DNA of 20,515 bases, from positions 1 to 20,515 of the IMG/VR virus record IMGVR_UViG_3300034108_000741; one strand, 5' to 3'. Made by a program: the position numbers and the translations under genes. The stretch comes from a virus. The stretch's first letter is position 1. The number at the start of each line of letters is the position of its first letter. Positions 1,627-20,515 of this stretch are shown piece by piece. A model generated the notes under the pieces. It worked only from the letters and a program-made list of their open reading frames with translations, had not been told where the DNA came from and made no database searches.

Positions 1627-1654
1627 AAACCAAAACGCCAAGACGCGAGACAAT

Positions 1655-2518
1655 ATGACTGAACCAATACACATCATCAGTTGCGGTGCTGGCTGGCAAA
1701 GTTCCGTTATGATGCTCATGGCTGCAAGGGGCGACTTTAAAGACGGTGAGGGGCAAGTAATTCGCGTTTCCCATGCTATATTTGCCGATACAAAAGCCGA
1801 GCCTGAGTCCGTAATGAAATGGCTGGACTGGCTAGAAAAGGAAGTGCAATCGCTTCCTTTTCCATTCCCGATTCATCGCGTTAGTTCTGGCTCACTAGAA
1901 GAAGATGAAACCCGTGTTCGTGTTAGCGGAAAAAGCGGCAAGCGATACATGAAAGGCTCAATTCCGGCGTTTGTTCTTAATCCAGAAGGAACGAAAGGAT
2001 TGCTTGGTAGAAAATGCACGGCTGACTATAAGATAGTTCCTATTCAGAAAAAGGTGCGCGAGATTGTCGGAATTAAGCGGGCCGGAAAAGGGATTGTTTA
2101 TGCTAAAATGTGGATTGGAATATCAACGGACGAGTGCCACCGCATGAAGCCAAGCCGTGTTGATTACATTGAAAATGTATGGCCGTTAATTGACGCTGGA
2201 ATTTCGCGCCGAAAGTGCGGCGAATGGATGAAAGTAAATGGCTATCCAGAGCCGCCCAGAAGCGCGTGCGTGTTTTGTCCGTTTCACGGAGATGCCGAGT
2301 GGCGGCGGCTTAAGGACAGTGAACCGACTGAGTTTGCGCGAGCCGTTGCGTTTGAGAAAAAAATGCACTTAGCGCAGAAGTCTCAAGATACATTGAGAGG
2401 CGTCCCGTTTTTACACTCATCCTGCATCCCCTTGGGTGATGTTGATTTCCACAATGCCAAAGCCAAACAGCAACTTGAAATGTTCGGCAACGATTGCGAA
2501 GGACTTTGCGGCGTATGA
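1655..2518 (+). CDS. PP-loop ATPase, PAPS-reductase-like family with cysteine clusters
   Basis: This 287-aa protein is read from ATG 1655 (MTEPIHIISCGAGWQSS). The open frame runs back to 1535, but that part overlaps the HNH gene and adds nothing family-like. Residues about 9-17 (SCGAGWQSS) form the PP-loop of adenine-nucleotide alpha-hydrolases, here with Cys instead of the usual first Gly. FADTKAEPESV (about 43-53) is the second nucleotide-binding strand. Cysteines expected for metal or Fe-S binding occur at C121 (RKCTADYK), C205/C208 (SACVFCPFH), and C281/C285 (CEGLC), with C161 and C188 also present. Phage relatives are commonly labelled phosphoadenosine phosphosulfate reductase, but the real substrate is unknown. 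No other sulfur-assimilation or phosphorothioation genes lie nearby. Its stop overlaps the next ATG. Confidence 0.85.
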   Translation: MTEPIHIISCGAGWQSSVMMLMAARGDFKDGEGQVIRVSHAIFADTKAEPESVMKWLDWLEKEVQSLPFPFPIHRVSSGSLEEDETRVRVSGKSGKRYMKGSIPAFVLNPEGTKGLLGRKCTADYKIVPIQKKVREIVGIKRAGKGIVYAKMWIGISTDECHRMKPSRVDYIENVWPLIDAGISRRKCGEWMKVNGYPEPPRSACVFCPFHGDAEWRRLKDSEPTEFARAVAFEKKMHLAQKSQDTLRGVPFLHSSCIPLGDVDFHNAKAKQQLEMFGNDCEGLCGV

Positions 2519-2815: not shown

Positions 2816-2872
2816 CGCCTAGCTAAAACCTAGCAATCATAAACACTTGAAACCAATATGCTTAAAACAAAT

Positions 2873-2902
2873 GTTCAACTTTGTTCAACAAATAACTTGA
2901 AC
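2873..2902. repeat. Three abutting 10-bp GTTCAA boxes upstream of the initiator
   Basis: GTTCAACTTT (2873-2882) and GTTCAACAAA (2883-2892) are direct copies. TAACTTGAAC (2893-2902) is the same box inverted, reading GTTCAAGTTA on the other strand. The 10-bp spacing puts all boxes on one face of the helix. The same box is repeated five times inside the downstream gene (3318-3367), so this set is a likely initiator-binding or operator site just upstream of the putative start at 2933. Confidence 0.7.
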
Positions 2903-2923
2903 ACGCGCAGAATATCCTATACT
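2897..2923 (+). promoter_or_regulatory. Possible promoter for the replication genes
   Basis: TTGAAC (2897-2902) and TATACT (2918-2923) resemble -35 and -10 boxes, but the spacer is only 15 bp. The -35 lies inside the inverted GTTCAA box, so protein bound there would block it. A start point near 2930 would give an almost leaderless mRNA for the ATG at 2933. This is inferred from sequence likeness only. Confidence 0.3.
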
Positions 2924-2932
2924 AGACGCCTT

Positions 2933-3775
2933 ATGTTCGCCAAAGTTTTCTCTCAAATCTTCGATTCCTCCATAGCCGAAAGTCACGAAGTTAGGCACAT
3001 CTTCATGGACTTGCTTGTATTGGCAGACGCCACGGGAGTTGTGGACATGACAATGCACGCGATTAGCAGGCGAATCAATGTCCCGCTTGAAAGCGTGAAG
3101 GCGGCACTTGAAAAGCTGGCAAGCCCTGACCCGCTTTCACGATCTGCTAAAGAGGATGGACGGCGCATCGTTTTGATTGACTCGCACCGCGACTGGGGCT
3201 GGCAGATCGTGAACTACGAGCACTACCGAAAGACGCAAGACGAAGAGGCGAGGCGGTCTTATTTCCGCGACTATCGAAAGGCAGAAAGGGGAAAAGCCTC
3301 TGATAAGAAGAAAACAAGTTCAACTCCGTTCAAGTCTGTTCAACATTGTTCAACTCCGTTCAAAAATGTCACACAGGGAGAGGGAGAGGAAAAAGCAGAA
3401 GGAGAAGCAAAAGAAGAGGGAGTAAGAGAACCATCCCAAAGCAGCATCGTCGAATCTGCGCCCTCTCTCGCTGACTTTTTGAAAAAGACAAGATCGCTTG
3501 GAGTTCCTGACCAATTCGCCGAATTAAAGTATCATTGGAAATGCGAGAAGGGATGGAATCACAAATGGGAGCCGTTCGCTCAACAAGTTCTAATCTGGTA
3601 TCGTTCCGGCCCTCAAAATAATCAGCCCGCGCCAAAGCCTCGCTCAGTCGGCATCAAAGAAACCCCGATGGACAAGCTGCTGCGCGAAAACGAGGAAATG
3701 TTCGCAGACGGCGTGCATCCTGACAAATGGCGCGCAGCAAACCCCGGCAAAGACTACATCAAATGCAAACCTTAG
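2933..3775 (+). CDS. Phage replication initiator / helicase-loader (lambda O-like)
   Basis: This 280-aa protein is read from ATG 2933 (MFAKVFSQIFDSSIAES). An upstream in-frame ATG at 2858 has the phage's usual AAACCAAT leader, but its 25 extra codons cover the GTTCAA boxes and look non-conserved. Residues 1-110 form a winged-helix DNA-binding domain (IFMDLLVLADATGVVDMT, then AISRRINVPLESVKAALEKL), followed by DWGWQIVNYEHYRK and EARRSYFRDYRK. Residues about 125-165 are a low-complexity linker containing STPFKS/STPFKN repeats and an acidic QGEGEEKAEGEAKEEG run. The DNA of this linker carries the iterons and purine tract listed separately. The C-terminal part probably recruits the helicase encoded directly downstream (13-base overlap). 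The protein would bind the repeats and load that helicase, as lambda O with P and DnaB; this role is inferred. Confidence 0.8.
   Translation: MFAKVFSQIFDSSIAESHEVRHIFMDLLVLADATGVVDMTMHAISRRINVPLESVKAALEKLASPDPLSRSAKEDGRRIVLIDSHRDWGWQIVNYEHYRKTQDEEARRSYFRDYRKAERGKASDKKKTSSTPFKSVQHCSTPFKNVTQGEGEEKAEGEAKEEGVREPSQSSIVESAPSLADFLKKTRSLGVPDQFAELKYHWKCEKGWNHKWEPFAQQVLIWYRSGPQNNQPAPKPRSVGIKETPMDKLLRENEEMFADGVHPDKWRAANPGKDYIKCKP
3318..3367 (+). repeat. Five tandem 10-bp iterons (candidate replication origin)
   Basis: Five abutting units start at 3318, 3328, 3338, 3348 and 3358: GTTCAACTCC, GTTCAAGTCT, GTTCAACATT, GTTCAACTCC, GTTCAAAAAT. GTTCAA is invariant and the last four bases vary. The 10-base period is not a multiple of three, so the box is conserved through all three codon phases. 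That argues for selection on the DNA rather than the protein. Placement in the linker of an initiator gene repeats the design of the lambda origin inside gene O. Confidence 0.8.
3375..3430 (+). other. Purine-rich tract next to the iterons (candidate DNA unwinding region)
   Basis: Of these 56 bases all but three (C3396, C3408, T3423) are purines on the + strand. The tract starts seven bases after the last iteron. In the lambda origin a similarly skewed, easily melted stretch follows the iterons and is where strands open. The tract also encodes the acidic linker of the initiator. A coding-only explanation (Glu/Gly/Lys-rich linker) is possible, but the adjacency to the iterons favours an origin role. 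Confidence 0.6.
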
Positions 3776-5076
3776 ACTCATTCCTTCCTGACATTCAAAG
3801 GCTTTTGCCACAATGCGCGGAGACAGAAAAGGCCATTCTGTCGTCGCTAATGCTTTCACCCGTGGAAGTGTATGCCATGTGCAGCGAACAAGGAATTTCC
3901 GCTGACTTTTTCCATATTCCAGCCCATGCAACCACATACGGCGTTTTGGCTTCACTCGCGCAAGATTCAAAGCCATTCGACTTCATCACGGTCACTGGCG
4001 CACTGCGCGATGCCGGAAAACTGGAAAGCGTAGGAGGCGCGCCATTCATCACCGAGATTGCAACGTTTTTGCCAACGGCGGCGAATGTGCAATACTACCT
4101 AGACATTTTGCGCGAAAAGCATCTGATGCGTCAGATTATCCGCGTTGGCACTCATTTTGCCGCCAGAGCATACACAGACACTGAAACGGCGGAAAACCTC
4201 GCGCATGAGGCGCACAGCGCACTCACTGGCCTATTGGTAAAGAAGTCAAAACGCCAAACGGTGAAGGAAACGATCCTCGAAATCGTGAAGGAGCTTGGCA
4301 GCGGCGAGGCGGACGGCGAGATTGTCAAGACGGGCGTAATCGGAGTGGACGGCGTGCTCGACCTCTACCGGGGCGATTTGCTCATCATTTCCGCGCCTAC
4401 CAGTTGCGGAAAATCGGCACTGGCAAACCAAATCCTAATCACGGCGGCGGTGGAAAACGGCAGTCGAGTGGCTTTCTATCCGCTCGAAATGCGCCAGAAA
4501 CAGACGCTAAAGCGCGCTATCGCCGTGCGGAGCGGGAACAATCCGAAGTATGTCCGCACGCTGCTAAACAACGCCAAACATCCCGAAGCGCAGAGCTACG
4601 CCGATGCCGCTGCCAAAAGCCTTGTGGACGCTTGCGCTGATTTGATCAAAGCACCGATCCACATGAGGGACGATCTCTATTCGCTGGAAGCCATCATTGC
4701 CGACATTCGCGCAGAGCATGGCGTTCGCCCCTTCGATTTCATCTGCATTGACTACCTGCAACTCATTCGATGCCAAGGACGATTCGAGCGGAGGCAACTT
4801 CAAATTGCAGAAATTACGCAACGACTAAAAATGACGGCGAACGAAATGAATTGCGTCGTGATCGTGCCAAGCCAGCAATCACGCGACGGCTCAACAAGGG
4901 AGGCGCAAGACGCTGAAATGGACGCTTCATCGCTTATCAAAATCCACGCCGATGCCGAGAGCGAGGACGTGAAGCCCGGGAGAATTGAAATTTGGAAACA
5001 ACGCGAAGGGGCGCGTCACGTTGATCTCAAGTTGAAGTTTAACGGATTACTCACTCGATTTGAACTAGAAGCCTAA
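3763..5076 (+). CDS. DnaB-like replicative DNA helicase
   Basis: This 437-aa protein is read from ATG 3763, which overlaps the end of the initiator gene; an ATG at 3727 would add 12 unlikely residues. Residues about 16-125 match the DnaB N-terminal helical domain (CAETEKAILSSLML, ADFFHIPAH, GGAPFITEIATFLP). The RecA-like motor follows: Walker A APTSCGKSA (211-219), catalytic Glu in YPLEM (E242), Walker B FICID (D330) then YLQLIR, motif H4 around VIVPSQQSRDG (367-376), and a candidate arginine finger in WKQREGARH (R414). The length is close to bacterial DnaB (about 470). It would be the ring helicase that unwinds phage DNA, loaded by the upstream initiator. The linker residues 155-190 fit the DnaB interdomain helix. 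Confidence 0.92.
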   Translation: MQTLDSFLPDIQRLLPQCAETEKAILSSLMLSPVEVYAMCSEQGISADFFHIPAHATTYGVLASLAQDSKPFDFITVTGALRDAGKLESVGGAPFITEIATFLPTAANVQYYLDILREKHLMRQIIRVGTHFAARAYTDTETAENLAHEAHSALTGLLVKKSKRQTVKETILEIVKELGSGEADGEIVKTGVIGVDGVLDLYRGDLLIISAPTSCGKSALANQILITAAVENGSRVAFYPLEMRQKQTLKRAIAVRSGNNPKYVRTLLNNAKHPEAQSYADAAAKSLVDACADLIKAPIHMRDDLYSLEAIIADIRAEHGVRPFDFICIDYLQLIRCQGRFERRQLQIAEITQRLKMTANEMNCVVIVPSQQSRDGSTREAQDAEMDASSLIKIHADAESEDVKPGRIEIWKQREGARHVDLKLKFNGLLTRFELEA

Positions 5077-16851: not shown

Positions 16852-17526
16852 TTACTTGGCTAGAACAGCCCTTAAAAGTTTCCCGCGCTCCGTTACGCGC
16901 TCGTATTTAACAAGAATCTTGTCGCCAACTTTCGGCAAGCGTGCGAGCGATTGCACGGGCACGCCGCCAAAGGATACGCCGTGACGCGAGACTTCGATTG
17001 AGCACTTGGCGATGTTCACGGATGCGACTTCAAAGACTTCTTGCTGGTAGTTTTTCCAGCGTTGGCAATAGGGCGTGCGTCCCTCCATGTAGGGCGCATC
17101 TACTCGTTTCAGAACGATACCTTCGCCCCCGCTCGCCTTCACGCGCTCGCACAGTTCGCGCTTTGCTTCCTCGCCAATGACGCGCTCTACAACTTCGCCT
17201 CTCCATACGTCGCACAAAATATCACGGCGGGCGCTGTTGTCGGAAAGCACGGGCGATCCCATCAAGCCGTAAATGTCGAACGCCACGAATCGGCCCGCTG
17301 GCATCTGCTCGCCGTCGAGAACGAAGTCAAACGGCGAAAGCATAGCGAGAGCAACCGTTTCTTCGCTGAGTGCTACGCGATTGCCTTCGCGGGTGAATCC
17401 GATGACTTCGTTGCCGCTTTTAACCACACGCCGCCAATCGCCATCTAGCTTCACTTCCGCGCACCATAACGGAGAATGGAAAAGCGGTTCGGGGTCGGCG
17501 CAGTCGGTGAGCAATTGGAGTTTCAT
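16852..17526 (-). CDS. Small ATP-dependent DNA ligase
   Basis: This 224-aa protein is read from ATG 17526; an ATG at 17550 would add eight residues. Ligase motifs appear in order: motif I AEVKLDGDWRR with the adenylated Lys K26, motif Ia GFTREGNR (about 43-50), motif III FVLDGEQM (D71-E73), motif IIIa FVAFDIYG (80-87), motif IV GGEGIVLKR (133-141), and motif V near QRWKNYQ (K159), where the second Lys of KxK is replaced by Tyr. The end, VGDKILVKYERVTERGKLLR, fits an OB-fold. This is a minimal ligase of adenylation plus OB domains. It would seal nicks in phage DNA with ATP. It is found between the tail chaperone and tape measure genes, inside the late operon, which is unusual. Confidence 0.88.
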   Translation of the reverse strand: MKLQLLTDCADPEPLFHSPLWCAEVKLDGDWRRVVKSGNEVIGFTREGNRVALSEETVALAMLSPFDFVLDGEQMPAGRFVAFDIYGLMGSPVLSDNSARRDILCDVWRGEVVERVIGEEAKRELCERVKASGGEGIVLKRVDAPYMEGRTPYCQRWKNYQQEVFEVASVNIAKCSIEVSRHGVSFGGVPVQSLARLPKVGDKILVKYERVTERGKLLRAVLAK

Positions 17527-17592
17527 GGATTGATTTCCACCAAAATGCACAGCTTCACCGATTCCGTCAATGAAAATGTTTGCGAGTAGTAA

Positions 17593-20028: not shown

Positions 20029-20515
20029 TTAACTAATCGTGACGTTGTTTTTTGAAACTACGTTCCAATGCCCGTCTATCGAAACAAGCGTCACGCTTGC
20101 TCCTCCGTATCCGGCAAATGTAATTAGGCTTTTATGTCCACCCACAACGCCGTCCCTAATTATGCCAGTGGCAGTAATCGTATGCGCATTGGCAGTGGAT
20201 GATGTTGCGACGATAGTAATTCCGTCTGTTGTCGGGGTGGCCAATGTCAGCGCGCAAACGCCAGCCTTGGTGATATTGACAACGCCGGATGTGATCGTGA
20301 TTGCGCCGTTAGCCGATGCCGTAGCGACTGGATAAGTAATCGCTGGTGCGGCGAGATTTGGAGCGGTTCCGAATACTGCCGAGCCTGTTCCTGTTTCATC
20401 GCTGATTTCATCGGCAAAGTTTTCGCTGGTTCGCGGGCTTGTGTCAGATTCCGCGATTGAATACGTTAATTCTCCCTCGCTGGAAAGAATCTCGTATTGT
20501 CGCGGAGTCGGGAAC
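20029..20515 (-). CDS. C-terminal part of a structural protein (cut by window edge)
   Basis: The frame is open from the right edge to the TAA-type stop at 20029, giving at least 161 residues. Ahead of a TTG at 20244 the frame continues without interruption, so the short 71-aa version is not real. Visible features are YEILSSEGELTYSIAESDTS near the left part, SGVVNITKAGVCALTLATPT in the middle, then IVATSSTANAHTITATGIIR and the end SIDGHWNVVSKNNVTIS. This last half matches a beta domain often attached to the C-terminus of phage capsid-decoration or tail proteins (the ANAHTITATG and GHWNVVS pattern). The full protein lies outside the window; it may be a head decoration or neck protein. Confidence 0.7.
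   Translation of the reverse strand, partial: FPTPRQYEILSSEGELTYSIAESDTSPRTSENFADEISDETGTGSAVFGTAPNLAAPAITYPVATASANGAITITSGVVNITKAGVCALTLATPTTDGITIVATSSTANAHTITATGIIRDGVVGGHKSLITFAGYGGASVTLVSIDGHWNVVSKNNVTIS

Follow-up and report, generated by a model that had tools for sequence, protein, structure and literature searches.

What role does a row of five short direct repeats, followed by a stretch consisting almost entirely of purines on one strand, play inside the coding sequence of a phage gene? The question is raised by the virus record IMGVR_UViG_3300034108_000741, a fragment that we analysed from position 1 to position 20,515, i.e. over its whole length of 20,515 bases (hereafter the window). 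An earlier interpretation made from the letters alone (the sequence-only reading) had proposed that the repeats and the tract form a replication origin within the gene for its own initiator. The DNA elements concerned are directly visible (table 1), and comparison with related loci leads us to consider it quite probable that the segment 3318–3430 is indeed a phage replication origin embedded in the initiator gene, where the protein would occupy the repeats, the strands would open, the phage's own helicase would be loaded and the initiator gene would be autoregulated.

Table 1. Coordinates of the features discussed, given as positions of the window.
Feature	Position	Strand	Remarks
Two GTTCAAC copies, 10 bp apart	2873–2889 (starts 2873, 2883)	+	Probable operator sites
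Inverted copy, TTGAAC on the + strand	2897–2902	−	
Least stable stretch, A+T-rich, in which the upstream copies lie; probable promoter region	2820–2932		TATACT at 2918–2923
Initiator gene	2933–3775	+	280 aa; N-domain, long helix, linker, C-domain
Five GTTCAANNNN units, period 10 bp	3318–3367	+	Inside the initiator gene (2933–3775)
Degenerate sixth unit GTCACACAGG	3368–3377	+	Border of array and tract, in register
Purine tract	3374–3430	+	53/57 purine; the window's form of the family's (GCAGAN)n-like hexamer tract
DnaB-type replicative helicase gene	3766–5076	+	Overlaps the end of the initiator gene; DnaB_C 1e-30, DnaB N 1.2e-18; phrog_19 4.5e-56

The protein encoded by 2933–3775 is interpreted as an initiator because its relatives match PHROGs that mostly represent replication initiation, primosomal and helicase-loader families, and because the next gene encodes a DnaB-type helicase. 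The window protein itself shows only a weak match to a known initiator family (phrog_3926, E = 0.0074) and none in a Pfam search; single relatives match PHROGs labelled 'O-like', and the Pfam O family was not encountered among 19 family members. The predicted model comprises a winged-helix-like N-domain (residues 1–93), a long helix (95–128), a disordered linker (about 138–173) and a helical C-domain, with the N-domain confidently modelled as a helix-turn-helix arrangement plus two short strands. The part of the protein encoded by the array and the tract overlaps the predicted disordered stretch. A fold search against the PDB retrieved weak winged-helix matches only (best E = 0.19), including RepA of pPS10 (E = 0.25), and sequence searches returned no credible relative with a solved structure. 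Protein searches likewise found no cultured-phage relatives of the window initiator or of those of loci L076 and L041. The start codon could also be the ATG at 2858, as 2858–2932 (+) is open in frame, and the matching stretch is open in the related loci L005–L007 as well. Elsewhere in the window, 1649–2518 (+) is a gene resembling phage phosphoadenosine phosphosulfate reductases (phrog_424, E = 3.5e-44) and 16852–17550 (−) matches ATP-dependent DNA ligases (phrog_114, E = 5e-10); Rfam and tRNA searches yielded nothing.

The repeats are arranged as originally described, with exact GTTCAA cores starting at 3318, 3328, 3338, 3348 and 3358 and falling into all three codon phases (1, 2, 0, 1 and 2, respectively). 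They are 10-bp direct repeats with a non-palindromic core, and GTTCAA is the only 6-mer in the 20.5-kb window with five exact tandem copies. Second-order Markov simulations (n = 200, periods 8–12) gave three copies in 3 cases and never more, and synonymous recoding of 3300–3440 according to the codon usage of the phage restored five copies in one of 20,000 trials; on these results we reject both chance and codon usage as explanations for the repeats. The purine tract, too, is a genuine feature, but the seven bases previously seen as a gap separating it from the array belong to the degenerate sixth unit, which is common to relatives, including ones with other repeat words. Among all 54-bp stretches of the window, purine content peaks within the tract (fraction 0.944, against a simulation maximum of 0.815). 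Since the tract encodes a peptide rich in Glu, Gly and Lys, recoded versions still average a purine fraction of 0.84 as compared with the observed 0.93, a value reached by 0.0014 of them, and the peptide explains the purine richness partly, not wholly. These figures bear on the simplest alternative, namely that a repetitive, charged peptide in the linker generates array and tract as mere by-products, which have no role as DNA. The predicted disorder of the linker and the 84% purine retained on recoding are what this alternative can draw on, whereas the spread of the array over all three phases and its near absence from recoded sequences speak against it.

Relatives of the locus were drawn from IMG/VR and GTDB genomes and comprise 47 non-redundant types. 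When the window is compared with L005–L007, third codon positions in the N-domain are 54–58% identical, the array cores are identical at 29 of 30 positions, and the 4-bp spacers between them at 6–10 of 20. Locus L148 keeps five cores (at spacings of 9 and 10) and a purine-rich tract, with GTCACACA as the border unit; its array differs from that of the window in both frame and peptide. In L028, L087 and L091 (together with L092 and L095) the stop codon of the initiator comes ahead of the array or right where it begins, and the DNA beyond it still contains most of the repeats; L028 has one further copy just ahead of the stop, and the tract of L087 is short, falling below the measure used for the tract count given below. 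The initiator genes of L028, L087 and L091 stop right after the DNA-binding domain, and it seems that a domain-only initiator suffices in these phages or that the C-domain is supplied elsewhere. In L020 and L024, as read from their sequences, the linker is free of repeats, and a row of them precedes the gene instead. Because the cores outlast codon drift, the frames differ in L148 and arrays continue beyond stop codons, the DNA pattern must be held independently of the peptide; this independence is seen directly. The sequence-only reading had itself put forward retention of the array under codon drift as a test of its proposal, and the cores and spacers, L148, the arrays past stop codons and the rows in L020 and L024 all bear it out.

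The repeat word varies from phage to phage (GTCAAC, GTAAGC, GTCAGC, GTAAAC, GTCGC, GTCCAA and others). Chains of at least three units in steps of 9–12 or 19–22 bp occur in the linkers of 35 of the 47 relatives (one of them, in L083, being the hexamer tract itself), as compared with about 3.7% of simulated linkers; by this measure the remaining 12 have no chain of three. Successive spacings are mostly 10 bp (55 cases), followed by 9 (22), 20 (14), 11 (7) and a few others. In 38 of 47 relatives the repeats are followed by a (GCAGAN)n-like tract that outscores all background stretches at the locus concerned, and nine have no clear hexamer tract by the measure used. These family counts, and the count of upstream copies given below, treat related types as independent and are to be taken as strong, yet not as exact probabilities. 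The tract occurs in all frames and both orientations: like DNA is translated as EAEA, DADA, TDTD, QTQT, KQKQ, NANA or SESE, in the reverse orientation as SASA or SLSL, and also as SPSP. The by-product explanation is thereby contradicted for the tract by the range of frames and orientations across the family and for the array by recoding, by core conservation and by the relatives that keep the DNA without the reading frame, and we regard it as extremely improbable. Start sites for primase (CTG every six bases) were considered as the reason for the tract; at least three are in register in 26 of 47 relatives and none in the window, so this cannot be a general explanation.

The family also provides cases of exchange. 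The helicases of L010 and L012 are 98–99% identical to that of the window and the C-terminal end of the initiator is the same, with L012 possessing a DUF1376 N-domain, a CTCCGT pyrimidine tract and GGTTCAACCAC repeats of its own; the sequence of L010 starts only within the same CTCCGT tract, so that its N-domain is not seen. L013 and L014 combine a helicase of 91% identity with a divergent N-domain, TGTAA repeats and a GAGTCA tract. From these comparisons, the N-domain, the repeats and the tract appear to be exchanged as a block while the helicase stays constant. A search by mutual information for a residue-to-word recognition code was discarded, as most of the top-scoring columns are not part of the predicted recognition helix and reflect the history of the family.

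Further copies of the repeat, overlooked in the sequence-only reading, are located upstream of the gene, at 2873, 2883 and, inverted, at 2897. The two direct copies and the inverted one are kept in L004–L007, and the more distant L148 has the same layout, with two direct copies and an inverted third. Across loci, the linker word occurs 33 times within 80 bp upstream of the gene against 4.2 copies expected when other parts of the same loci serve as the reference, and none of 20,000 draws reached 33. The match between linker and upstream words is thus directly apparent from this same-locus test, which we prefer over a swap test of upstream versus linker 6-mers (640 against 364 ± 33), the latter being inflated by base composition. 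At least two upstream copies are present in 11 of 31 loci, and in 15 of 31 the linker array occurs without any. The upstream copies are probable operator sites of the same initiator protein. A consensus sigma-70 promoter was not found upstream of the initiator gene; the TATACT motif ends nine bases ahead of the ATG at 2933 and would fit a leaderless transcript.

The same region invites a different assignment of the origin, in which the A+T-rich stretch 2820–2932 with its three GTTCAA copies would be the origin proper and the linker array an auxiliary element, either titrating the initiator or contacting the upstream sites through a loop, as in iteron plasmids. DNA stability within the window is, indeed, lowest upstream of the initiator gene, around 2839, GC content around 2858–2921 is 32%, and L020 and L024 have their repeat row upstream and none in the linker. 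However, the hexamer tract follows the linker array and not the upstream copies, many loci do without the latter altogether (see the 15 above), and the upstream group consists of two or three copies, partly inverted, as is usual for an operator. We therefore consider an upstream origin unlikely. The main doubt attached to an in-gene origin, and to the melting region assumed in the sequence-only reading, concerns the place of strand opening, which may be the tract, with a GC content of 48% against 53% for the window and hence not A+T-rich, or the A+T-rich stretch upstream of the gene, about 400 bp away from the repeats and the tract.

GTTCAA rows are not restricted to this gene family. We found 87 stretches with the motif at 10-bp spacing as compared with 10 at a control spacing of 13 bp, and most of the 87 fall outside the initiator family; because such rows also occur near unrelated genes, a GTTCAA array alone is not diagnostic. 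All ten stretches among the 87 with a tract of at least 86% purine belong to the initiator family, these being mostly near-copies of one another, and a tract of 81–83% purine accompanies one family member (L148) and one other stretch (L120). In L104, L112 and L115 the array lies about 27 bp ahead of an integrase-like ORF starting MAGHVRKRGNK, and these rows are possibly operator or arm-type sites unrelated to the initiator. A five-unit row in L102 and L111, about 19 bp ahead of a 294-aa ORF starting MKTILFDRISNK and separated from it by an apparent ribosome-binding site, is probably an operator row. Rows that immediately precede a different gene in another phage can thus be operators, and one may ask whether the linker array is likewise regulatory only, for instance a roadblock or silencer limiting transcription into the helicase gene, with the origin elsewhere in the phage; a 20.5-kb fragment leaves room for other candidate origins. 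This explanation accounts neither for the hexamer tract after the repeats in 38 of 47 relatives nor for the way in which N-domain, repeats and tract are exchanged together, and strikes us as distinctly improbable.

An origin within the initiator gene would work as follows. The winged-helix N-domain would bind the GTTCAA cores, probably with one protein per 10-bp step, such that the bound molecules would all be aligned along the same side of the helix. Once assembled, the row would strain the DNA at the border unit (3368–3377), strand opening would take place within the purine tract or next to it, and the C-domain would recruit the DnaB-type helicase that the phage itself encodes in the adjoining gene. 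The initiator may also bind the upstream copies and repress or tune its own gene. Binding of the protein to the repeats is supported indirectly, in that linker and upstream words match within loci and N-domains and repeats are exchanged together; binding itself, opening, helicase loading, the start of replication and autoregulation we infer from the sequence pattern. Cumulative GC skew, suggested earlier as a check, shows no turn at 3.3 kb, and in a record that is a fragment this measure is uninformative.

The lambda origin, invoked as the model in the sequence-only reading, holds as an analogy. In lambda, 19-bp near-perfect inverted repeats within gene O bind O dimers, and immediately after them comes an A+T-rich tract in which one strand carries nearly all the purines (PMC5043065; for Stx phages, see PMC7466680). 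Shared with the window are initiator sites inside the initiator gene, in its linker-coding part, and a purine-asymmetric tract after them (53/57 here). Membership of the lambda type does not follow, given the 10-bp direct repeats without symmetry and the lack of a clear O homology (no Pfam O family match, next to the 'O-like' PHROG matches of single relatives); the tract has 48% GC instead of being A+T-rich and, in the family, a hexamer rhythm, a phage DnaB-type helicase gene takes the place of the P loader with the host helicase, and repeat copies occur also upstream of the initiator gene. Another comparable system is oriL of the Bacillus phage SPP1, located in gene 38, where gp38 binds to direct repeats and the phage supplies a helicase of the DnaB family (PMC6316719). 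Both systems thus have direct repeats within the initiator gene and a phage DnaB-family helicase gene in the same module; SPP1 differs in having a separate loader gene (39), a second origin (oriR) and an A+T-rich unwinding element, whereas none lies beside the repeats here and the tract has 48% GC. In our general searches, no relation in sequence between gp38 and the window initiator came to light.

Plasmid iterons are about 20 bp long and located outside the gene, serving as direct-repeat sites for a winged-helix initiator, with related, partly inverted sites at the promoter. The window resembles such plasmids (RepE and RepA, pPS10 type) in its direct repeats, its predicted winged-helix initiator and the related, partly inverted sites at the initiator's own probable promoter, but its repeats are shorter, at 10 bp, and reside in the gene. 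Autoregulation of RepE is treated in PMC13028717. The locus is thus one that works like ori-lambda and SPP1 oriL and meets neither definition in full. As far as our incomplete coverage of the open-access literature extends, we encountered no description of the hexamer tract or of matched upstream copies in phages.

More tentatively, and with rather less than even confidence, we suggest that the locus may represent a widespread class of origins in mostly uncultured phages. Each phage would have its own word of about 6 bp, present both in the linker and at the promoter and recognised by a winged-helix initiator, followed by a (GCAGAN)n purine/pyrimidine ladder that is not A+T-rich and would serve as a distinct opening or helicase-loading element, and the word and the domain reading it would change together. 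If so, a row of short repeats at 10-bp steps with a hexamer purine ladder after it, inside an initiator gene or adjacent to it, would serve as a rule by which origins could be located in the sequences of many uncultured phages, the loci would constitute a natural set of matched protein/repeat pairs for studying DNA recognition by initiators, and the recognition code could be worked out from sequence. The conservation of the ladder as DNA across frames and orientations, together with its not being A+T-rich, poses the question of how such origins open. A similar design was seen with another N-domain family in L101, where a DUF1376-type gene contains, at 1840–1925, CTTCAACCAAC repeats and then a TCTTCT pyrimidine tract.
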